The notes below the pieces were generated by a model. That model saw only the letters and a program-made list of their open reading frames with translations, had not been told where the DNA came from and searched no databases. Position numbers and translations under genes: made by a program. 51,683 nucleotides of DNA from a virus, in IMG/VR virus record IMGVR_UViG_3300015263_001423, positions 1 to 51,683 of that record. The stretch is one strand, 5' to 3'. This document shows, piece by piece, positions 10,246-51,377 of this stretch (position 1 is the stretch's first letter; the number at the start of each line of letters is the position of its first letter).

Positions 10246-10274
10246 TTGACCTTTTCCCCAAACCGATTTATAAT
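10246..10274 (+). promoter_or_regulatory. Promoter of MltR-like gene 1
   Basis: TTGACC-17 bp-TATAAT, identical in both hexamers and spacing to the promoters at 42419-42447 and 24881-24909. The spacer TTTTCCCCAAACCGATT is almost the same as that of the second MltR-like gene. Confidence 0.85.
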
Positions 10275-10290
10275 GGAGGCCAACTAAAAA

Positions 10291-10357
10291 GCGTCGAGGC
10301 CTGGCAGTGTCGCAAGCACCACCAGACCTCTAACAAGCACAGTAAGGGAGACTTACC
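10291..10357 (+). promoter_or_regulatory. Shared two-hairpin leader RNA, copy 1
   Basis: P1: GAGG (296-299)/CCTC (327-330), a C-A mismatch, CTGG (301-304)/CCAG (322-325), then GTG/CAC closing the 7-nt loop TCGCAAG (310-316). Linker TAACAAGCACA. P2: GTAAG (342-346)/CTTAC (352-356) with the Shine-Dalgarno GGAGA in the loop, one base before ATG. The architecture recurs at 42337-42400 and 24799-24860, with compensating stem changes. Confidence 0.8.
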
Positions 10358-10837
10358 ATGCAAGCTGACCATAATTGTAACACCCCCCTATCATTTGACC
10401 AATTTATAAAGCAACTCATTATCAGTTGTCCCGATTCCGATTCCGAGATCGCCATCGGCGGCGCGGCGCTGCTGGATGAGCAGCTCTACCAACTCCTGGC
10501 GGCCAGCCTGCTGGGGAGCCAGACCCAGATCGACAGCCTGCTAAACCTGGCCGGCCGCCGCAAACAGTTGGCCTACTGCATCGGCCTGATCAGCCCGGCC
10601 GAATTTGAGGAGCTGGGCGCAATAGGCAAAATCCGCAATCGCTTCGCCCACGACTTCCCCCGGCCCACCTTCCAGAGTAACGCCATCCGCCACCTGGTCA
10701 GCCTGTTGGCCAACTATCACGCCGGGCTGGTGGACGGCCTCGACCGGCGCGACATTTATCTGGGCGCCGTCCGCCACATGAGCAACCGGTTGGCGGCTCG
10801 CCTGGAAAGGGTCCGTCGTATCCGGGGCGTCGGCTAA
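10358..10837 (+). CDS. MltR-like family protein 1
   Basis: A 159-residue helical protein resembling the mannitol-operon repressor MltR family: ALLDEQLYQLLAASLLGSQTQI, then RRKQLAYCIGLISPAEFEELGAIGKIRNRFAHDF. The RNRFAH motif is the family hallmark. Classic MltR modulates mannitol genes, but no mannitol genes are present here, so the function is open. It is paralogous to the gene at 41884-42336, sharing the MQA start, core motifs, promoter and leader RNA. It is transcribed alone from a strong promoter, away from the neighbouring late operon. Confidence 0.8.
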   Translation: MQADHNCNTPLSFDQFIKQLIISCPDSDSEIAIGGAALLDEQLYQLLAASLLGSQTQIDSLLNLAGRRKQLAYCIGLISPAEFEELGAIGKIRNRFAHDFPRPTFQSNAIRHLVSLLANYHAGLVDGLDRRDIYLGAVRHMSNRLAARLERVRRIRGVG

Positions 10838-24420: not shown

Positions 24421-24798
24421 TTACTCGTATTTCGGCAACATCTCAAGCGGATCACGGCCGGTTATCCGGCCAAGAGCCGTTTCCCACTCTTCACTACAAA
24501 GGGTGTTGTCCATGGCCTCAACGGCCTGGACCAGGGCGCCATCCAGGTCCAGGAGAGCAATAATGTCTACCGCTCCGCTCGCGTCTCGTTTGGGGTTGGC
24601 GGCGAAATCGGTCAAGGCCGTAATGGCCTCGGCTAAACGCCCCAGACCGGGCAAGTCCACCCCGGGGGCTGCTTCTGTCTCCGGCGCAGCTTCGGGCGAC
24701 AGGAGCGCCGCCGCCAGCAGGCCAGTGGCCGCCAAAAAACGACGACGGCTTATTTTGTTGATTAAGTTGGAGAATGTTAAAATAGTTTCAGTCTTCAT
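24421..24798 (-). CDS. Tat-signal exported small protein
   Basis: A 125-residue protein with a twin-arginine-type signal: ISRRRFLAATGLLAAALLSPEAA (residues 15-38), so probable export in folded form. The mature part is helical and acidic (LGRLAEAITALTDFAANPKRDASGAVDIIALLDLDGALVQAVEAMDNTLC). No family is recognised. It is transcribed alone: its own TTGACC-17-TATAAT promoter, the shared two-hairpin leader, and a strong terminator. Sharing a leader with the two MltR-like genes suggests co-regulation. Confidence 0.75.
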   Translation of the reverse strand: MKTETILTFSNLINKISRRRFLAATGLLAAALLSPEAAPETEAAPGVDLPGLGRLAEAITALTDFAANPKRDASGAVDIIALLDLDGALVQAVEAMDNTLCSEEWETALGRITGRDPLEMLPKYE

Positions 24799-24860
24799 CA
24801 GTACCTCCCGTACTGTTGTGGATTAGAGCCGGTTTGATGGTTTCAACATCAGGCCGGCTC
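24799..24860 (-). promoter_or_regulatory. Shared two-hairpin leader RNA, copy 3
   Basis: P1: GAGCCGG/CCGGCTC (24854-24860 and 24826-24832), a CC/AA internal loop, TGATG/CATCA and the 7-nt loop TTGAAAC. P2: CAGTAC-GGGAG-GTACTG (24799-24815) with the Shine-Dalgarno in the loop, directly abutting ATG. The stems differ in sequence from copies 1 and 2, but the fold is the same. Confidence 0.75.
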
Positions 24861-24880
24861 GTTCGTTTAAAGTTGACCGC

Positions 24881-24909
24881 ATTATATACCCGAAGTCAGG
24901 ACAGGTCAA
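24881..24909 (-). promoter_or_regulatory. Promoter of the Tat-signal gene
   Basis: On the minus strand TTGACC-17 bp-TATAAT; both hexamers match the two MltR-like promoters, and the -10-to-ATG distance (82 nt) is the same. Confidence 0.8.
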
Positions 24910-26096: not shown

Positions 26097-26197
26097 TAAA
26101 AATCCCCGGTTTCGGTAGCCTCGCTGATTGATCTACTGATCCGAAGTCAGCTGCTCTTATCCATTGAGCTACGAGGGCGAACGAAACCGAGGATTTT
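26097..26197 (-). pseudogene. tRNA-Arg(UCG)-like element without T-arm, enclosed by an inverted repeat
   Basis: On the minus strand 26178-26116 reads as the 5' two-thirds of tRNA-Arg: GCCCTCG acceptor side, TA, D-arm GCTC-AATGGATAA-GAGC, and anticodon arm GCTGA-CTTCGGA-TCAGT (anticodon TCG). After it only about 11 nt separate the anticodon arm from CGAGGCTA, so the T-arm is missing and the acceptor has a mismatch. Arms AAAATCCCCGGTTTCG (26099-26114) and CGAAACCGAGGATTTT (26182-26197) pair with one mismatch, ending in a U-rich stretch on the minus strand. It lies directly downstream of the integrase gene and may be a degraded tRNA at an attachment site that also serves as terminator. Confidence 0.6.
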
Positions 26198-26280
26198 CTC
26201 GGTCATGATTAATCATTATTATAGCCATTTTTACCATATAGTCAATTCCGCACCCCCCACCCCGGGCCAAATGAATAACC

Positions 26281-27288
26281 CTACTGATTCTCACTAGTAA
26301 GCGCCCGCTGCGCCTCGTCTAATCGTTGGCCCAGCCCGCCGGCCTGATAGGCCGCCACCTGTTCCTGATTGCGAAGTTGCAAATACACTTCCGTCATTTT
26401 TATGGACCGGTGGCCTAACTGATCTTTAACTTTATGAATCGGAATATTTTGGTCCATCGCCGCCAAAGCGGATGAATGGCGAAGCGCATGGAATTTGCGA
26501 TGCGGCAGTCCACAATCGCGACAATGCCGCCGCAACATCTGGTTCAGCGCATCGCGGCCCAATGGCTTGCCGATCCCCACCCGCCCCCCATAAGAGACAA
26601 ACAGTTCGGGCGAGCCGGATCGGGGCCGGATCTGCAACCAGGCCAAAAGCGCGGCGGCTACCTCATCATCAAAGCCGACGAAACGGTCCCGTTTAGATTT
26701 TGAGGTTTCTCGCCGGATGAGGGCCTGGCGACCGGGGATATCGACATCGGTCAGCTTCAAGCAAACAATCTCATTCGCCCTGGCGCCGGTCACATAGGCA
26801 AAATAGATGATGGCGTAATCGCGTTTCACCCGTTCATCCTTCTTAAAAAGGCTTTTAGCCCGGTTAGCCAAATGACGCAGCAATAGGGCAATTTCCTGAT
26901 CAGTAAAGGCCGTCGGCGACAGGTCCGGCATCCGGGGGAACATCCCGGCCAGTTTCATCCGCCGCACCGGGTTCTCATCAACGGATAACAGGCCAACCCC
27001 TTCGCAATAGTTGAGAAAGGAGCGCAGATGCCGCCAGTAGTTGTGAACCGTGGCCTCGCTGTTGGACAGACTGACCGTTTCCAGCCAGTCCATCACCAGG
27101 TCAACCGAGGGTGGCCACGGCTCCGCCTCGGCGTACTGGGCGAATAGACGCAGGACGGAATTGTAGGCGCGGCGGGTGCTGGCCGCTTTGAATCGTTTGG
27201 CCCGGTTAAATTGGTCAATGTAGCTTAATAGGTCTGTTTCTGTTTCTTGAATCATACCAAACCAATCGACGAGAGGGGTGATTACCAT
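26281..27288 (-). CDS. int: Tyrosine recombinase/integrase
   Basis: A 335-residue protein with an N-terminal SAM-like core-binding domain (STRRAYNSVLRLFAQYAEAE through FLNYCEGVGLL) and the catalytic domain: Arg in TGARANEIVCL, Lys in SKSKRDRFVGF, HxLRH box (HALRHSSALAAM), the GH of LGHRSIKMTEVYL, and the nucleophile Tyr in the latter motif. All five catalytic positions are present. XerC/D-like in layout. It is next to the tRNA-like element, so site-specific integration is the likely role, though chromosome-dimer resolution of a plasmid prophage is possible. Confidence 0.9.
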   Translation of the reverse strand: MVITPLVDWFGMIQETETDLLSYIDQFNRAKRFKAASTRRAYNSVLRLFAQYAEAEPWPPSVDLVMDWLETVSLSNSEATVHNYWRHLRSFLNYCEGVGLLSVDENPVRRMKLAGMFPRMPDLSPTAFTDQEIALLLRHLANRAKSLFKKDERVKRDYAIIYFAYVTGARANEIVCLKLTDVDIPGRQALIRRETSKSKRDRFVGFDDEVAAALLAWLQIRPRSGSPELFVSYGGRVGIGKPLGRDALNQMLRRHCRDCGLPHRKFHALRHSSALAAMDQNIPIHKVKDQLGHRSIKMTEVYLQLRNQEQVAAYQAGGLGQRLDEAQRALTSENQ

Positions 27289-28190: not shown

Positions 28191-29216
28191 ATGAGTTACG
28201 AATTCCAAAATCGTGTCTTGTCTGTCTCCAAAACAAAACAGTCCCAACGGCTGCTAATGCTCACCCTGGCCCTGCATGCCGATAAATATGGCGTGTGTTG
28301 GCCCTCAGTCAACACCCTGGCCAAAGAACTCAACGCCGCCGTCAGAAATACCAACGCCCTCATCGCCAGGCTCAAAGACAGTGGCGAGATAATCATCATC
28401 GAGGGGGGAGGGCGCGAAATTAGCAACACCTATATTATCACCCTGGGACAATCGGAAACAGATATCGCCCGCATATTAAAAACCCACCCCCGCCTGATCG
28501 GGCGTGTAAACCCTGATGATAACATCATAGTATCCAATGACATAAACCCTGATGATAGTGACATAAACCCTGATGATAGTGACATAAACCCTGATGATAA
28601 CATCATAGTATCCGATGACATAAACCCTGATGATAGTGGCATAAACCCTGATGATAGTGGCATAAACCCTGATGATAGTGGCATAAACCCTGATGATAAC
28701 ATCAGACGAATAGATAGAATATATAGAATCAGTGAATCTAAGAAGAAGACATGTGCGCCTGCGCCTGCGATCACGTTACCCGCTTGCGATCCGGAATTGG
28801 GCCGCTGTTATAACATCTATCTCAACAACATGGGAGGCTCGCTGACCGATGTCCTGGTGCAGGATATTCGCACCGTTTATTACAGCCTCGCCCCTCCCGG
28901 CGGCGAGAAACAGTCAGACTGGTTTGAGTACGCCATCCTGGAGGCGCAATCGAACCGGAAAAATAGTTGGTCCTATGTCAAAAAGATCGTCACCGCTATT
29001 GCAAATAATGGCAGTTTAGAAAAACATAAGGAGATCCGGCAAAATGGATATTCAAACCGCGAATCAGAAACTAATGGCCTTACGCCAGGCGGACGAAATC
29101 AAGCGCAATCAACAACGAACGGCCATAGTGGGCCACCCGGCGAATCATACGCCGAGTCCTATAGCCGCGTTAACGACGAAAACATTAGCGCCTATATGCG
29201 ACGTTACTCCAACTGA
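28191..29216 (+). CDS. Replication initiator: N-terminal winged helix, repeat linker, DnaD-like C-terminus
   Basis: A 341-residue protein with the layout of phage initiators such as lambda O. Residues 1-95 are a winged helix (SQRLLMLTLALHADKYGVCWPSVNTLAKELNAAVRNTNALIARLKDSGEI). Residues 105-175 are eight INPDD repeats encoded by iteron-like DNA. Residues 195-275 are a DnaD-type domain (RCYNIYLNNMGGSLTDVLVQDIRTVYYSL, WFEYAILEAQSNRKNSWSYVKKIVTAI) that recruits the helicase-loading complex. The next gene is a DnaC-like loader, overlapping it by 173 nt. Expected role: bind the origin inside its own gene and load host helicase. Confidence 0.85.
   Translation: MSYEFQNRVLSVSKTKQSQRLLMLTLALHADKYGVCWPSVNTLAKELNAAVRNTNALIARLKDSGEIIIIEGGGREISNTYIITLGQSETDIARILKTHPRLIGRVNPDDNIIVSNDINPDDSDINPDDSDINPDDNIIVSDDINPDDSGINPDDSGINPDDSGINPDDNIRRIDRIYRISESKKKTCAPAPAITLPACDPELGRCYNIYLNNMGGSLTDVLVQDIRTVYYSLAPPGGEKQSDWFEYAILEAQSNRKNSWSYVKKIVTAIANNGSLEKHKEIRQNGYSNRESETNGLTPGGRNQAQSTTNGHSGPPGESYAESYSRVNDENISAYMRRYSN
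28507..28698. repeat. Iteron cluster, probable replication origin
   Basis: Eight identical 15-bp blocks TAAACCCTGATGATA start at 28507, 28543, 28564, 28585, 28621, 28642, 28663 and 28684. The spacing is 21 bp (two helical turns) except for two 36-bp gaps. An AT-rich stretch follows at about 28698-28745. Position in the middle of the initiator gene matches oriLambda in the O gene. Confidence 0.8.
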
Positions 29217-39606: not shown

Positions 39607-39643
39607 GTTTCAATCTCTCATTCGAGATAATCGGCCTTTGAAC
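39607..39643. CRISPR. Solitary CRISPR repeat, identical to the array repeat
   Basis: One complete 37-nt unit (starts GTTTCAATC, ends CGGCCTTTGAAC), identical at all 37 positions to the nine repeats at 41228-41848 and in the same orientation, but 1.6 kb away with no neighbour repeat. It overlaps the 3' end of a small minus-strand ORF. Confidence 0.9.
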
Positions 39644-39786
39644 GCGGCGTAGGCCGGGGCCGGCGCTCGCAAGGGAATGACGCCCGGCCGCTCGGCCGCG
39701 CCAGGCGCTAACCCCAACCAGACCAGGAGGCCCAACAAGCCCAGCAGCCCCCATTTGATATATGACAAAATATGGCTATAATTCAT
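39610..39786 (-). CDS. Small membrane protein ending in a CRISPR repeat
   Basis: A 58-residue protein: MNYSHILSYIKWGLLGLLGL then LVWLGLAPGAAERPG, one membrane helix and a Pro/Ala-rich tail. GAGAGGAG lies about 11 nt before the ATG. The last residues (FKGRLSRMRD) and the stop codon are encoded within the solitary CRISPR repeat, so the repeat probably arrived at the end of, or truncated, this gene. Too short for common ORF cutoffs. Confidence 0.5.
   Translation of the reverse strand: MNYSHILSYIKWGLLGLLGLLVWLGLAPGAAERPGVIPLRAPAPAYAAFKGRLSRMRD
39755..39782 (+). promoter_or_regulatory. Promoter of a small transcript
   Basis: TTGATA-16 bp-TATAAT; the transcript would reach the terminator at 39840-39873, about 85 nt downstream. 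Confidence 0.6.
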
Positions 39787-39828
39787 CTTAGTCTTTACTC
39801 CTCTCTTTATACGTCAGGAGTTTGGATA

Positions 39829-39882
39829 ATGAGTGAAGCCCCCCGCCTATCAGTAAAGCGGGGGACTTTTTTTATGATCTGA
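39829..39882 (+). CDS. 17-codon ORF overlapping a terminator
   Basis: ATG with CAGGAG 9 nt upstream encodes MSEAPRLSVKRGTFFMI. The ORF runs through the terminator hairpin, the arrangement of a leader peptide, but no downstream plus-strand gene exists. It may be a tiny toxin-like or regulatory peptide, or chance. Confidence 0.3.
   Translation: MSEAPRLSVKRGTFFMI
39840..39873 (+). terminator. Rho-independent terminator
   Basis: CCCCCGC (39840-39846) pairs with GCGGGGG (39858-39864), then ACTTTTTTT. It ends the small transcript from 39.78 kb and separates the plus-strand block from the minus-strand toxin-antitoxin genes. Confidence 0.9.
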
Positions 39883-39896
39883 TTGGTAACCCCCTA

Positions 39897-40181
39897 TTAA
39901 GGATTTCTGTATATATCGTGATGCCCAATTTTTCTGAAAACAAAGGTAATTTCGCCAGTTTCGTCGTCTTCTTCCCGGTGAAATGTAAAGACATACCCAA
40001 GTGTTATATGGCCTTCCCAGATATCAGAATGTCCCTTCATTGGCTTAATCCGTAATGAGGGATGATAAGGATGGAAAGGCTGTTCTTTGAATAACTTAAA
40101 GCTTTTTTTTGCTTGGTCTCGAATGTCAGTCGGCAATTGCTCAAAACACTTGCGAAAATGCCGGGTTACACGATATTTCAT
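39897..40181 (-). CDS. RelE/ParE-superfamily toxin
   Basis: A 94-residue protein: MKYRVTRHFRKCFEQLPTDIRDQAKKSFKLFKEQPFHPYHPSLRIKPMKGHSDIWEGHITLGYVFTF, the compact alpha-beta fold of mRNA-cleaving RelE-type toxins (helices with basic residues, then a sheet with LGYVFTFHRE and IGHHDIY at the C-terminus). The ATG at 40181 is chosen; the longer frame is a shadow of the upstream antitoxin gene. It lies directly downstream of a small gene with an AbrB-type antitoxin tail. Confidence 0.8.
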   Translation of the reverse strand: MKYRVTRHFRKCFEQLPTDIRDQAKKSFKLFKEQPFHPYHPSLRIKPMKGHSDIWEGHITLGYVFTFHREEDDETGEITFVFRKIGHHDIYRNP

Positions 40182-40191
40182 TATTGATAGG

Positions 40192-40515
40192 TTATAATGT
40201 CTCCAGGAAACCATCGAGCGAGTCAAAATCTTCGTACTGTCCGGTTTGTAAGTCGCGTTCAACTTCGCGTTCCCCGGCTTGCCATTCCGGTGTCCAGAAC
40301 CAGGCCTGGGTTTGATCGGTTTCAACCGTTATCAAGCTGGAGGATGTATATATATTGGCGATCAATTGGCCGGTCATTACATTATTTCGCACATCAAATA
40401 TATAAAAACAGGCCGGCGGTTGTCCCCATTCTTCTTCGCCAGGATGACTATGAATAAAAATAGCGGCTGATCCTTCTTCACTTGAAGCCAGCGTTTTGGT
40501 GTTACTTTCAATCAT
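40192..40515 (-). CDS. Antitoxin-like protein
   Basis: A 107-residue protein. The C-terminus (WTPEWQAGEREVERDLQTGQYEDFDSLDGFLETL) is the helix that type II antitoxins of this style use to wrap the toxin. The N-terminal part (AAIFIHSHPGEEEWGQPPACFYIFDVRNN) lacks a clear DNA-binding motif and looks more like a folded sensor-type domain. Starts in an 8-nt overlap with the upstream gene; the toxin follows 10 nt after its stop. Confidence 0.65.
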   Translation of the reverse strand: MIESNTKTLASSEEGSAAIFIHSHPGEEEWGQPPACFYIFDVRNNVMTGQLIANIYTSSSLITVETDQTQAWFWTPEWQAGEREVERDLQTGQYEDFDSLDGFLETL

Positions 40516-41191
40516 GGTTGTTCCCCTGTATAAATGTTTTGACTTGATTTTCAATAAACCTGTCAACCTCGGTGATCCGGTCTGTTGGCTTAAATTCCCC
40601 TGTTTGTACCCACTTAAAAATAGCCTCGATAAAGAATTGTTTTGTATTCCCTAGATATGACTCTATTTTGATCTCTATTTGCGGCGAACCATCATCAGTG
40701 TGGGGCATAACAAATCTAAGCCCCCCCCCCAGAATTGGCCTGCCAAATATGGATAATGACGCTTCAGGCTGTCTTAAGCGAGTGACCCATAATTCTTGAA
40801 ATGCATGGTCACCTGAAGCTTGATAAAGATAACGAATAGATGCGTCACAAGATAAAATCTGACGCGATCCTGTCCAGGTAGACCGGAAAGCTTGAATAAC
40901 CATATCGACGATTCTGGAAAATTCATCCGGTATATAGGTCGGATTAGGGTTAGCGATTATGAGTAACTGGCCGATAGGAGCATCAATATTGGCCCCAATT
41001 TTTATTTGAAGCGGCGGCGTCTTTTTGAGAATCAGTATCCCATTATCAGCTGTTAGCTCACCTCTATCATAATCAACGCCAGCGTTCAATATCGCTTGTT
41101 GAAAGGCGATCAATCGTTGTTTATTTATTTCAGGTGGGGGGGATAAAACATAATTAATTCCTAAATGTAACAAAACCCCTTCATCATGCAT
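40508..41191 (-). CDS. Hypothetical third component of the toxin-antitoxin operon (TIGR04255-like style)
   Basis: A 227-residue protein: LLHLGINYVLSPPPEINKQRLIAFQQAILNAGVDYDRGEL, ANPNPTYIPDEFSRIVDMVIQAFRSTW, SYLGNTKQFFIEAIFKWVQTGEFKPTDRITEVDRFIENQVKTF. The pattern recalls a sporadically distributed alpha/beta family often next to toxin-antitoxin pairs, but I could not confirm this. It overlaps the antitoxin gene by 8 nt, so it is coupled. Its start is 36 bp from the first CRISPR repeat. Confidence 0.5.
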   Translation of the reverse strand: MHDEGVLLHLGINYVLSPPPEINKQRLIAFQQAILNAGVDYDRGELTADNGILILKKTPPLQIKIGANIDAPIGQLLIIANPNPTYIPDEFSRIVDMVIQAFRSTWTGSRQILSCDASIRYLYQASGDHAFQELWVTRLRQPEASLSIFGRPILGGGLRFVMPHTDDGSPQIEIKIESYLGNTKQFFIEAIFKWVQTGEFKPTDRITEVDRFIENQVKTFIQGNNHD

Positions 41192-41227
41192 TCCTTAAAC
41201 CCCTTTCTGTAAAAGTTTTGAAGATGA

Positions 41228-41848
41228 GTTTCAATCTCTCATTCGAGATAATCGGCCTTTGAACCTGACGCAAAAAGCGGCGCAAAAAATGGCGCAGATT
41301 GAGTTTCAATCTCTCATTCGAGATAATCGGCCTTTGAACAGCATCTAACCACATCTAGCAATAGGCAAAAAAGAGGTTTCAATCTCTCATTCGAGATAAT
41401 CGGCCTTTGAACATAAAAATAGTATACCATAAATTTGCCGAGTGTGCAGTTTCAATCTCTCATTCGAGATAATCGGCCTTTGAACTGATGTTAAGATTGT
41501 GGGGACGGTGGCCAGCTTGTTGTTTCAATCTCTCATTCGAGATAATCGGCCTTTGAACCAGATAATGGCCAAGGTTGCCAAGTATTACGGTGTGTTTCAA
41601 TCTCTCATTCGAGATAATCGGCCTTTGAACAGGACAAATGAGCGGAATTGTAGAGGTTGTAAACGGGTTTCAATCTCTCATTCGAGATAATCGGCCTTTG
41701 AACAGTGACGATCCACTAGCAGGCGCAACTTTTTAAGGAGTTTCAATCTCTCATTCGAGATAATCGGCCTTTGAACGCGGGCGCAATTGGATGAGGCCAT
41801 CAATGAGGCGGGTTTCAATCTCTCATTCGAGATAATCGGCCTTTGAAC
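41228..41848 (-). CRISPR. CRISPR array: 9 identical 37-nt repeats, 8 spacers, no cas genes
   Basis: Repeats start at 41228, 41303, 41376, 41449, 41522, 41594, 41667, 41740 and 41812. Spacers are 38, 36, 36, 36, 35, 36, 36 and 35 nt. Read on the minus strand each repeat begins GTTCAAAGG and ends ATTGAAAC, the 8-nt 5' handle typical of type I/III crRNAs, so transcription from the right is inferred. All nine repeats are identical. No cas gene occurs in the window. The MltR-like gene 2 ends 36 bp to the right, pointing into the array. No spacer visibly matches the rest of the window. Confidence 0.97.
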
Positions 41849-41883: not shown

Positions 41884-42336
41884 TCAGTTCCGCAGGCGCT
41901 TAATCCGGTCCATCTTGCGGGTCATGAGGCCGCTCAAGCGATAAATGGCCTTAACCACGATAGCCTGACGGCTGAGGCCGAGCAGCAGGCCGTCGTGATA
42001 GCTGGAAAGGTCGCCGATGTGGGAGGCGATGGCCGGGCTGTGGAAGCCGGGCCGGGGGTAGTCGTGGGCGAAGCGGTTGCGGATGTGGTTAATGATCGTC
42101 AGGTCGTCAAAGTCGGCCTGGTCTATCAGGCCGGTGCAGAGGGCCAGCCGGCGGCGGGTGACCGCCCGTTCCAGGAGGGCCGTTTTCTGGGTTTTGCTGC
42201 CCAGGAGGGCCACGTCCAGGAGTCGGTAGAGGACCTGGTCCAGGTGGGCCGCGCCGCGAATGGCGATCTCGGAATCGATGACGGTCTTGATTTGGGGATT
42301 GGTTTGGGGCTGTGCTAAAATAGATACAGCTTGCAT
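41884..42336 (-). CDS. MltR-like family protein 2
   Basis: A 150-residue paralogue of the gene at 10358-10837: VIDSEIAIRGAAHLDQVLYRLLDVALLGSKTQKTALLE, RRRLALCTGLIDQADFDDLTIINHIRNRFAHDYPRPGF, with the RNRFAHD hallmark. The ATG at 42336 (MQAVSIL) is chosen over an upstream in-frame start because it aligns with the paralogue's MQADHN start and follows the conserved Shine-Dalgarno hairpin. Its transcript would run straight into the CRISPR array in the orientation that gives canonical crRNA handles. Confidence 0.8.
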   Translation of the reverse strand: MQAVSILAQPQTNPQIKTVIDSEIAIRGAAHLDQVLYRLLDVALLGSKTQKTALLERAVTRRRLALCTGLIDQADFDDLTIINHIRNRFAHDYPRPGFHSPAIASHIGDLSSYHDGLLLGLSRQAIVVKAIYRLSGLMTRKMDRIKRLRN

Positions 42337-42400
42337 GGTAAGTTCACTCCTTACTGTGCTTGTTAGAGTTCCGTCGGTGGTATCAACACCGGCGGAATTC
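42337..42400 (-). promoter_or_regulatory. Shared two-hairpin leader RNA, copy 2
   Basis: P1: TTCCG/CGGAA (42393-42397 and 42369-42373), a C-A mismatch, CGGTG/CACCG and the 7-nt loop TTGATAC. The linker CTAACAAGCACA is identical to that of copy 1. P2: GTAAG-GAGTGAA-CTTAC (42338-42354) with the Shine-Dalgarno in the loop, one base before ATG. Confidence 0.8.
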
Positions 42401-42418
42401 GTCATTTAATTGACCTTC

Positions 42419-42447
42419 ATTATAAATCTGTTTGGGGAAAAGGTCAA
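42419..42447 (-). promoter_or_regulatory. Promoter of MltR-like gene 2
   Basis: On the minus strand TTGACC-17 bp-TATAAT; the spacer differs from MltR promoter 1 at one position. Palindrome copy 5 lies 12 bp upstream of the -35. Confidence 0.85.
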
Positions 42448-49325: not shown

Positions 49326-51377
49326 ATGACTGAAAGCCGCCAACCTGGTAGGAATTTTAGGGATGAATTACTTAAGATTTTGTCAGGGATGACCGCTTTG
49401 GATGACCCTGACAACCGATATCGGCTATTGGACAAGTTGCCACTAGAGGCAGTAGCAACCATACGACGCAATTCTGCTAAGGGGACCGACCTATACAATA
49501 TCGTTCAGGCTGCCGAAGGATGGGGACAATTGACCTCTGGAGAGTGGGCCTTGGTCGTTATCGCCCAAAACGCCCTATCTCTAGTTAAAGGAACCCACCC
49601 CGGTCGTCAGCTAGAGGCTCTTTTAGCTGAAAGGGTTATTCATCAGGCCAAGCCAGGCCGGCAGATCCCCCTTGATCTGCCAGCGCGAGAGGAGAATTTT
49701 ATAGACCGTAAGGACGAACTGGTATCTCTACTCACCGAATTACAACCAGGACGAGTAGTCACTTTGACTGGGCCGGGGGGCATGGGCAAGACTGCCCTGG
49801 CCGCGGAAGCCGTTGGCCAACTGGTGGTTGATCATAAGCCCCCTGAGCGTTTCCCGGATGGCATCTTCTTTCATAGCTTTTACAACCAACCCCAAGCCGG
49901 TTTAGCCCTGGAAAGTCTGGCCCTGGCCTTTGGCGAGGAAGCCAGGCCAACGGCCCAGGTAGCGGCACAACGGGCGTTGAGCGGCCGGCAGGCCTTATTG
50001 GTGTTGGATGGCGCTGAAGATGCGGATGACTTGGCGGCCGTGTTAGCGGTGCGCGGGGGGTGTGGGGTTTTAATAACCAGCCGTAATCGGGGCGATGCGC
50101 CGGCCGTGTTGCAAGACCTGGCGCCCCTCAAACAGCAAGACGCCCTGGACTTATTACAACGCTGGGCTGAAGCGCAGCTTGATGACCAGGCGGCGGCCAT
50201 TGCCATCTGCGAACTGGTGGGGAGGCTGCCGCTGGCGGTGCGTCTGGTAGGGCGGTATCTGCGTGAGACCGGGGAGACGGCCAGCGAGTATCTAGCCTGG
50301 TTACAAGAAACCCCGTTAGAGGCCCTGAACCAGGGGCGGCGACGCGAAGAAAGTATACCTGTCTTACTTGAGCGCAGTCTAAAGCAGGTCAGTGAGGCGG
50401 CGCGGCAAGTGTTGGCGGTGGCCGGCCGGCTGGCGCTGGCCCCGCTGCAACAAGAGGTGATGGGGGCCGCTTTGGCAGCCGAAGCGCGTGAGGTGAGACA
50501 GTGGTTAGGAGAATTGGTGCGCTATGGCTTGCTGAGCCGGGACAAAGGGCGTTATGCCATCAGTCACGCCCTCATTCACACCTACGCCAGTGAGCGGCTC
50601 AATGTGGCGGAGGAGATGGTCGAGCGGTTGGTGGCTTTCTATGTCGCTTTGGCTGAACACTTTAGCCAGCAAGGATTGGCAGGCTACCAGGCGCTTGATG
50701 GGGAGCGGCCTCACCTGCTGCGCTTGATTGCAGGCTGCGCGAAAGGAGATGATTGGCTGGGGGTTCGCAAGCTGGTCTGGGCCATTGATGGTTATTTGTC
50801 AATTCAGGGTCACGCCAGCGAACGACAAACTGCCCTAGCGACAGGGCTAACAGCCGCCCAACAACTGGGCGACCGCCAAGATGAAGGGGCATTTTTAGGC
50901 AGCCTGGGGACCGCCTACTACGACCAGGGGGAGCTGGACAAAGCCATCGCCCATTCTCAGCAAGCCCTGGTCATCCACCGCGAGATTGGCTACCGCCAGG
51001 GGGAGGCTGCTGTTTTAGGCTACCTGGGAACCGCCTACAGCATCCAGGGGGAGCTGGCCAAAGGCATCGACCATTATCAGCAAGCCCTGGTCATCCACCG
51101 CGAGATTGGCTACCGCCAGGGGGAGGCTTATAATTTAGGCATCCTGGGTCTCGCCTACCGCGCCCAGGGGGAGAGGGCCAAAGCCAGAGAATACTTAGCC
51201 CAGGCGCTCACTATTTTTGAGGCGATCAAATCGCCCCAGGCAGACGCAATTCGTGAACAGTTGACTATGCTGACTATGTTAGGCCGCCTCCATATACTCT
51301 TAGCAATGTGTCAGGCCATCTACGAGAAAGGATTGATGAGGCAGCTTTTGCCGCTTTTCAAAAGGCTTATTCACTAA
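49326..51377 (+). CDS. STAND NTPase: N-terminal effector-associated domain, NB-ARC, TPR repeats
   Basis: A 683-residue signal-transduction ATPase. Residues 1-105 are a helical domain (FRDELLKILSGMTALDDPDNRYRLLDKLPLEAVATIRRN) resembling effector-associated adaptor domains. NB-ARC: Walker A VTLTGPGGMGKTALA near 155, Walker B ALLVLDGAEDADD near 222, GVLITSR, and GRLPLAVRLVG; then a winged helix (VRYGLLSRDKGRYAISHAL) and at least three TPR units of 40 residues, two nearly identical at DNA level. Such proteins are often antiphage sensors. The last about 30 residues (LGRLHILLAMCQAIYEKG) look out of frame, so a frameshift near 51290 is possible. Confidence 0.85.
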   Translation: MTESRQPGRNFRDELLKILSGMTALDDPDNRYRLLDKLPLEAVATIRRNSAKGTDLYNIVQAAEGWGQLTSGEWALVVIAQNALSLVKGTHPGRQLEALLAERVIHQAKPGRQIPLDLPAREENFIDRKDELVSLLTELQPGRVVTLTGPGGMGKTALAAEAVGQLVVDHKPPERFPDGIFFHSFYNQPQAGLALESLALAFGEEARPTAQVAAQRALSGRQALLVLDGAEDADDLAAVLAVRGGCGVLITSRNRGDAPAVLQDLAPLKQQDALDLLQRWAEAQLDDQAAAIAICELVGRLPLAVRLVGRYLRETGETASEYLAWLQETPLEALNQGRRREESIPVLLERSLKQVSEAARQVLAVAGRLALAPLQQEVMGAALAAEAREVRQWLGELVRYGLLSRDKGRYAISHALIHTYASERLNVAEEMVERLVAFYVALAEHFSQQGLAGYQALDGERPHLLRLIAGCAKGDDWLGVRKLVWAIDGYLSIQGHASERQTALATGLTAAQQLGDRQDEGAFLGSLGTAYYDQGELDKAIAHSQQALVIHREIGYRQGEAAVLGYLGTAYSIQGELAKGIDHYQQALVIHREIGYRQGEAYNLGILGLAYRAQGERAKAREYLAQALTIFEAIKSPQADAIREQLTMLTMLGRLHILLAMCQAIYEKGLMRQLLPLFKRLIH

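Follow-up and report, generated by a model that had tools for sequence, protein, structure and literature searches.

CopA and RNAI are antisense RNAs of plasmid copy control, and in type I toxin-antitoxin systems (e.g., hok/sok and par/Fst) an antisense RNA is located at the 5' end of a toxin gene, the toxin usually being a short hydrophobic peptide. RNAII of plasmid pMV158 is a further small antisense RNA that blocks translation of the initiator gene, and its pairing is driven by a 5' tail rather than by loop-loop kissing, as set out in the sections of the study cited here (PMC4485353). A different type of control has been described in a Clostridioides difficile prophage, where an AbiF-family protein is placed under a structured two-motif RNA, RCd22, through direct RNA-protein contact, according to the cited part of that work (PMC12373285). 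In the cited passages of a HEPN survey, both AbiF and MtlR are classed as HEPN, the Rx4-6H motif is kept in 60%, and inactive HEPN members are suggested to bind RNA (PMC3710099).

The present analysis concerns the 51,683-nucleotide IMG/VR virus record IMGVR_UViG_3300015263_001423 (the window), in which three genes are preceded by similar two-hairpin leaders. In the reading that we consider probable, judged from sequence, these elements encode cis-encoded antisense RNAs of about 80 nt that cover the start codon and Shine-Dalgarno (SD) sequence and would repress translation. Like pMV158 RNAII as portrayed in the cited sections (PMC4485353), they would be small cis-encoded antisense RNAs with a hairpin and a U-rich 3' end lying over the target gene, repression here being predicted. 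Unlike that RNA as portrayed there, they have two hairpins and no long 5' tail; unlike plasmid copy control, several copies occur in one phage and the targets are not replication genes. As in type I toxin-antitoxin systems, a mobile element would carry a possibly harmful gene whose 5' end is overlapped by an antisense RNA, but the phage products are 125-159 aa rather than short hydrophobic peptides, so that the arrangement may be said to work like such a system without being a member of the class.

The AbiF-RCd22 pair, as far as the cited part describes it, combines a phage HEPN-type gene with a structured two-part RNA, as is predicted here, whereas the RNA of this phage would run antisense across gene starts, among them those of genes without a HEPN match. 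Weak MtlR matches and an RNxxxH motif recall the MtlR branch of HEPN as outlined in the cited passages (PMC3710099), but the matches fall below Pfam and NCBIfam cut-offs and the genes are phage-borne. No description of a HEPN gene under cis-encoded antisense control was found in the literature searched. If the antisense reading holds, what looked like a new leader or riboswitch becomes an antisense system that can be tested, carried by an uncultured phage, and HEPN-like proteins join the possible targets of antisense control.

Five copies of a two-hairpin element in one phage

The window and the 86,114-base record IMGVR_UViG_3300022562_001969 represent the same phage (3001 bases at 100% identity, with gene 1 also at 100%), and the match coordinates suggest that the map is circular and measures about 85,970 bases, that record carrying a repeat of about 144 bases at its ends. 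Two stretches of this ~86-kb phage that lie outside the window are referred to as L023 and L024. The original prediction had assigned TTGACC-17-TATAAT promoters, leaders and start codons to three genes, all of which were located at the positions given; they are numbered here as copies 1 to 3 after the genes that they precede:

10246 to 10275, plus strand: sense promoter of gene 1, TTGACC-17-TATAATG, with GGCCAA at 10278-10283 after the promoter
10358 to 10837, plus strand: gene 1, 159 aa, MtlR-like (below cut-off), with RNRFAH (R93, H98)
42418 to 42447, minus strand: sense promoter of gene 2, TTGACC-17-TATAATG
41884 to 42336, minus strand: gene 2, 150 aa, 48% identical to its paralogue gene 1, with RNRFAH
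24880 to 24909, minus strand: sense promoter of gene 3, TTGACC-17-TATAATG
24421 to 24798, minus strand: gene 3, 125 aa, twin-arginine signal-like N-terminus, the remainder without assignment

The pattern TTGACC-N13..20-TATAATG is found three times in the window, compared with a mean of 0.02 in shuffled sequence. The leaders fold as had been described: a 14+7+14-nt hairpin comes first, a CTAA linker follows, and a second hairpin carries the SD in its loop. Rfam covariance models gave no match to the copies, with E values of up to 5 considered for the window and of up to 1 for L023/L024, and a riboswitch or other known leader was rejected as a reading.

Searches for homologues, which had been proposed as a check, yielded a fourth and a fifth copy in the same phage and none outside it in the viral and genome sequences covered. 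Copy 4 (L023 1939-1830, minus strand) precedes gene 4, a 130-aa paralogue of gene 3 with 66% identity; copy 5 (L023 2005-2084, plus strand) also lies outside the window. As a held-out check of homology, a sense model built from copies 1 and 2 retrieved copies 3 and 4 at E values of 1.6e-6 and 2.5e-7. A 143-nt duplicate with 91% identity is present upstream at leaders 1 and 2, which are read as recent duplicates, leader 3 being more distant; the three window leaders are thus not independent cases.

Strand signature and predicted antisense RNAs

Sense stems were aligned for four copies (20 pairs, 80 cells) and evaluated by five measures against 500 column shuffles. The covariation that had been noted is borne out, with 67 of the 80 cells paired and 10 of the 20 pairs changed on both sides. 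None of the 500 shuffles attained four of the measures and two attained the remaining one, further pair types, while slid registers came nowhere near the true register. Because the pairing beats the shuffles, a structure is maintained; with one phage and five copies, partly recent duplicates, the stem cells are not independent.

All 13 unpaired stem cells of the sense strand are C·A or A·C, and G·U occurs in none of the 80 cells. A C·A mismatch on one strand corresponds to G·U on the opposite strand. Under the most lenient assumption, in which each mismatch is one random transition from a Watson-Crick pair and half are expected to be G·U, the probability of 13 out of 13 is about 1e-4, a figure limited by the non-independence of cells in related copies. 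The true RNA strand is probably the antisense one rather than the sense leader. The same inspection could serve as a cheap general check of leader-RNA claims, in that a set of mismatches made up of C·A alone points to the opposite strand as the RNA.

On the antisense strand, 94% of 116 cells in the four-copy alignment are paired (56/56 in hairpin II), 15 of 29 pairs are changed on both sides, and none of 500 shuffles scored as high on any of the five measures. Hairpin I expands from 5-6 pairs on the sense strand to as many as 15 positions (53/60 cells paired), thereby incorporating the start codon and first codons. Fold z-scores for copies 1-4 are -4.0, -6.0, -6.6 and -6.7 for the antisense strand versus -2.5, -2.6, -2.4 and -4.7 for the sense strand, and copy 5 scores -5.8 versus -3.2 for its complement. 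At each of the five loci the antisense strand folds with an energy 10.8-17.9 kcal/mol below that of the sense strand; at a single locus such a difference is not extreme, and among 3000 random phage stretches strand differences in either direction were at least 10.8 kcal/mol in 290 and at least 14.1 in 105.

The following elements are predicted for the window copies:

10284 to 10367, minus strand: predicted antisense RNA 1; hairpin I at 10366-10332, loop UCUCC, the SD complement
10330-10296, minus strand: hairpin II of predicted antisense RNA 1, 14 bp with a 7-nt loop; tail GACGCTTTTT
10374 to 10401, minus strand: predicted antisense promoter 1, within the coding region, TGGTCA-16-TACAAT with TG extension
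42327 to 42412, plus strand: predicted antisense RNA 2; hairpin I at 42328-42364, hairpin II at 42366-42400
42316 to 42321, plus strand: antisense -10 of copy 2, TAAAAT with TG extension (TGCTAAAAT), -35 weak
24789 to 24872, plus strand: predicted antisense RNA 3; hairpin I at 24790-24824 (loop CUCCC), hairpin II at 24826-24860, tail GTTCGTTTAA
24778 to 24783, plus strand: antisense -10 of copy 3, TAAAAT with TG extension (TGTTAAAAT), TTGTTG at spacing 17

Geometrically, the predicted antisense element spans both the leader and the AUG at each of the four gene loci. At every one of the five loci a hexamer with 5/6 matches to a -10 box stops 6-7 nt short of hairpin I, and at four it is TG-extended; across the phage, such hexamers occupy 1082 of 171688 positions (0.63%), or 82 (0.05%) with TG. 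The antisense -35 boxes are weak, and a stricter promoter scan called one of the five (copy 1) and none for copies 2-5. A terminator scan of the antisense strand called hairpin II terminator-like in copies 1, 3 and 4 but not in copies 2 and 5. The tail of predicted antisense RNA 2 (GTCATTTAATT) is a poor terminator tail, and the 10-nt hairpin loop of copy 5 lies beyond the scan's loop limit of 8. The antisense tails of copies 3 and 4 contain short T runs. Given a -10 before hairpin I and a terminator-like hairpin II, the predicted RNA extends from the foot of hairpin I to just past hairpin II.

An antisense promoter at this position would also account for some nucleotide similarity that, in otherwise unrelated genes, continues into the initial ~45 nt of coding sequence. 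This similarity is clearest between genes 2 and 4 (20/27), the other pairs being weaker and modest (15-18 of 26-34). A comparison of the start of gene 1 with the other genes at different reading-frame offsets, meant to tell nucleotide from protein conservation, gave a best offset that varied by pair and is not relied on here.

These observations bear directly on the earlier proposal of a sense-strand operator, in which a two-hairpin mRNA leader bound by a protein or ligand controls ribosome access. Sense hairpins do exist, with the SD in a loop beside the AUG, covariation holds on the sense strand too, and the sense fold of copy 3 is strong by itself (z -4.7, as given above). We nevertheless consider such an operator unlikely: its stem failures are C·A with no G·U, its fold is the weaker one at every locus, its loops show by eye no clear common ligand-type motif, and it would leave unexplained both the -10 boxes within coding regions and the terminator-like hairpins of copies 1, 3 and 4. 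What is supported in the proposal is a conserved two-hairpin RNA and translational control; what is not supported is the mRNA leader as the structured regulator, in view of the C·A-only failures, the stronger antisense fold and the antisense -10. CsrA-type regulation, which involves a GGA in a hairpin loop, was likewise rejected, as the loops of the first sense hairpin (P1) are without GGA and the strand signature would be left unexplained.

The fifth copy was detected by a covariance model of the four antisense strands, which had been built without it, at E=3.4e-5. The sense model of the same four copies gave E=2.3 and a two-sequence sense model (copies 1 and 2) E=0.069, a comparison that is not wholly fair because the four-copy sense model is without the outer part of hairpin I. 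Copy 5 has two tight hairpins, one of them of 13 bp by eye, an anti-SD loop and the tail TGTTTTTTT, whose T7 is by eye the best T tail of the set. A sense promoter was looked for by pattern and promoter scan and not found, and its complement opens a doubtful 62-aa ORF overlapping copy 4; copy 5 may thus be either a relic or a free-standing RNA. Unbroken complementarity to the copy 2 mRNA extends over at most 12 nt, by eye CACAGUAAGGAG, a stretch that includes the SD.

Predicted target genes and proposed mode of control

Genes 1 and 2 score 13.4 and 17.1 bits against MtlR PF05068, i.e., below the cut-off of 25.2, and match NCBIfam PRK11001 far below its cut-off. To the one Tat-signal gene of the window a second, gene 4, is added outside it; the Tat-like signals of genes 3 and 4 lie above the NCBIfam cut-off but below that of Pfam, and no HEPN domain was found in these two genes with Pfam. 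Both MtlR-like paralogues carry the HEPN Rx4-6H motif as R93-N-R-F-A-H98 (gene 1 numbering), with RNEFAH in a Klebsiella phage relative. The predicted structure of the MtlR-like protein is all-helical, with a pLDDT of 42 that is too low for a fold search, and no relative of solved structure was found by sequence. PADLOC made no defence-system call.

The module would consist of a sense gene with a near-consensus promoter and a cis-encoded antisense RNA of ~80 nt, the promoter of the latter lying within the first ~45 nt of the coding region. From the observed sequence, structure and spacing, antisense transcription is expected to begin at the foot of hairpin I. The anti-start codon lies in the 5' arm of this hairpin, and the loop is the SD complement. 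The transcript would run through hairpin II and stop just past it, near the 5' end of the sense mRNA. It would then pair with the whole leader, perhaps beginning from exposed complementary loops, whereby ribosome binding may be blocked or the mRNA marked for decay. The presumed targets, namely the two MtlR-like proteins that bear the HEPN ribonuclease motif and the two proteins with Tat signals, are plausibly products of genes whose expression a temperate phage has to keep low.

A variant of the antisense reading, whose probability overlaps with it, is that the antisense RNA acts as a protein-binding antitoxin and inhibits the HEPN protein directly, in the manner of RCd22 and AbiF. The RNA is compact and almost fully paired, HEPN-like proteins are encoded by two of the target genes, and a phage AbiF is neutralised by a two-motif RNA according to the cited part of that work (PMC12373285). 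This variant is regarded as a minority possibility, since the same type of RNA overlaps two Tat-signal genes without a Pfam HEPN domain, direct protein contact would not require the RNA to cover the AUG and SD of each of the four genes, and the stem sequences are not conserved as expected of a protein site.

Predicted pairing specificity

The copies have diverged unevenly. Copies 1 and 2 are identical at 70/76 bases of the promoter region and at 34/39 of the linker and hairpin I but at only 21/35 of hairpin II; for copies 3 and 4 the pattern is reversed, with 32/35 identical in hairpin II but 22/37 in linker and hairpin I. Duplex energies are -159 to -179 for own pairs versus -43 to -120 for cross pairs. 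Paralogous hairpins and loops have diverged while stems were kept, so that, by pairing energies, each RNA best matches its own gene.

This pattern fits orthogonal antisense pairs, a purpose that the sequences suggest, the alternative being drift with the structure kept. The YUNR loop motif is often carried by antisense pairs, and by eye it can be recognised in the P1 loops of copies 2-4 on the sense strand (UUGA, UUGA and CUGA) and, for copy 1, in an antisense loop (CUUG). With several copies that differ in their stems, a single genome would permit a direct test of how antisense pairs turn mutually blind. It is further conceivable, though we consider it rather doubtful, that orthogonal RNA switches, duplicated and re-coded in the manner of plasmid incompatibility RNAs, form a multi-copy antisense-controlled HEPN effector system and silence HEPN-type ribonucleases and exported proteins during lysogeny, in which case the fifth RNA could act in trans.

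The divergence also bears on a simpler explanation, namely that plain 5'-UTR hairpins stabilise the mRNA or tune translation, with homology arising only from duplication of a promoter-leader cassette. A 5' hairpin near the start of an mRNA is commonly protective, and the upstream bases shared by copies 1 and 2 are what a duplicated cassette would give. This explanation appears very improbable, as it does not account for the compensated divergence of hairpin II in copies 1 and 2 beside a nearly unchanged linker and hairpin I, for the strand signature, or for a fifth copy without a detected sense promoter. The preferred reading remains that of antisense RNAs acting on translation.

Searches for relatives and other features of the phage

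Among the matches listed in a protein-guided IMG/VR search for relatives, the same phage alone appeared. In 33 other terminase-related phage records, many of them fragments, the RNA was not found (best E 0.57) and neither were homologues of either protein pair, a positive control being present in one of the two protein searches. When the promoter pattern was searched in GTDB genomes (genome_contigs), 15 stretches were folded and by eye none had the two hairpins; several resemble copies of one coding stretch in Bacteroidota. The promoter inverted repeat TTGACC...GGTCAA was rejected as a marker of relatives, its nine viral stretches comprising three from the same phage and six unrelated by eye. 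A sequence in another viral contig (L088) that comes close to the SD hairpin was rejected too, as it scores 6.2 bits and lies within unrelated sequence. Scanning with a loose structural descriptor missed copy 1, brought up no additional copy that convinced by eye and gave many chance hits (244 in five shuffled replicates). These negatives cover IMG/VR patterns and proteins, the 33 terminase-related records and one genome_contigs promoter pattern, and distant relatives are possible.

Several additional features were recorded along the phage. Ten exact 37-nt repeats form a CRISPR-like array at window 39607-41848 (plus strand), nine of them spaced by 72-75 nt and the tenth standing apart at 39607. 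A second such array, at L023 2597-2965, has six copies of a different repeat of ~32-33 nt at 60-67-nt spacing. A third CRISPR-like repeat of 29 nt, which we take to resemble type I-E CRISPR repeats, occurs singly or paired with 0-2 mismatches at L023 1295, 3143 and 3197 (plus strand) and at window 42956 (minus strand), with a further copy carrying six mismatches at window 48996. As a guess, the three repeat types may represent mini-arrays or solitary-repeat anti-CRISPR RNAs.

Palindromes like GATGTTCGCGCGCGAACATC occur in seven copies (window 327, 10215, 19511, 30037, 42459, 45585 and 47180), two of which immediately precede the -35 boxes belonging to sense promoters 1 and 2, and are possibly candidate operators of a phage regulator. 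Tandem heptamers of the CCATCGT/CTATCGT and TTGACAA/TTGATAA types are found on both strands (window 11433, 13086, 15318, 42491, 45520 and others; L023 2084-2300). Two integrase-like genes were observed, one in the window (26281-27288, minus strand; a tyrosine recombinase by profile) and one in L023 (209-1150, minus strand; by the look of its translation only). Within a replication-initiator-like gene, direct repeats at window 28507-28704 (TAAACCCTGATGATA units, spacings 21 and 36 nt) are a possible candidate replication origin. A tRNA-like gene at window 26116-26245 (minus strand) has its own TTGACT-16-TATAAT promoter and flanks that, by eye, could pair, followed by a T run. Finally, three 120-nt direct repeats lie at window 50868-51227 in a 683-aa ORF, the second and third being 83% and 60% identical to the first.
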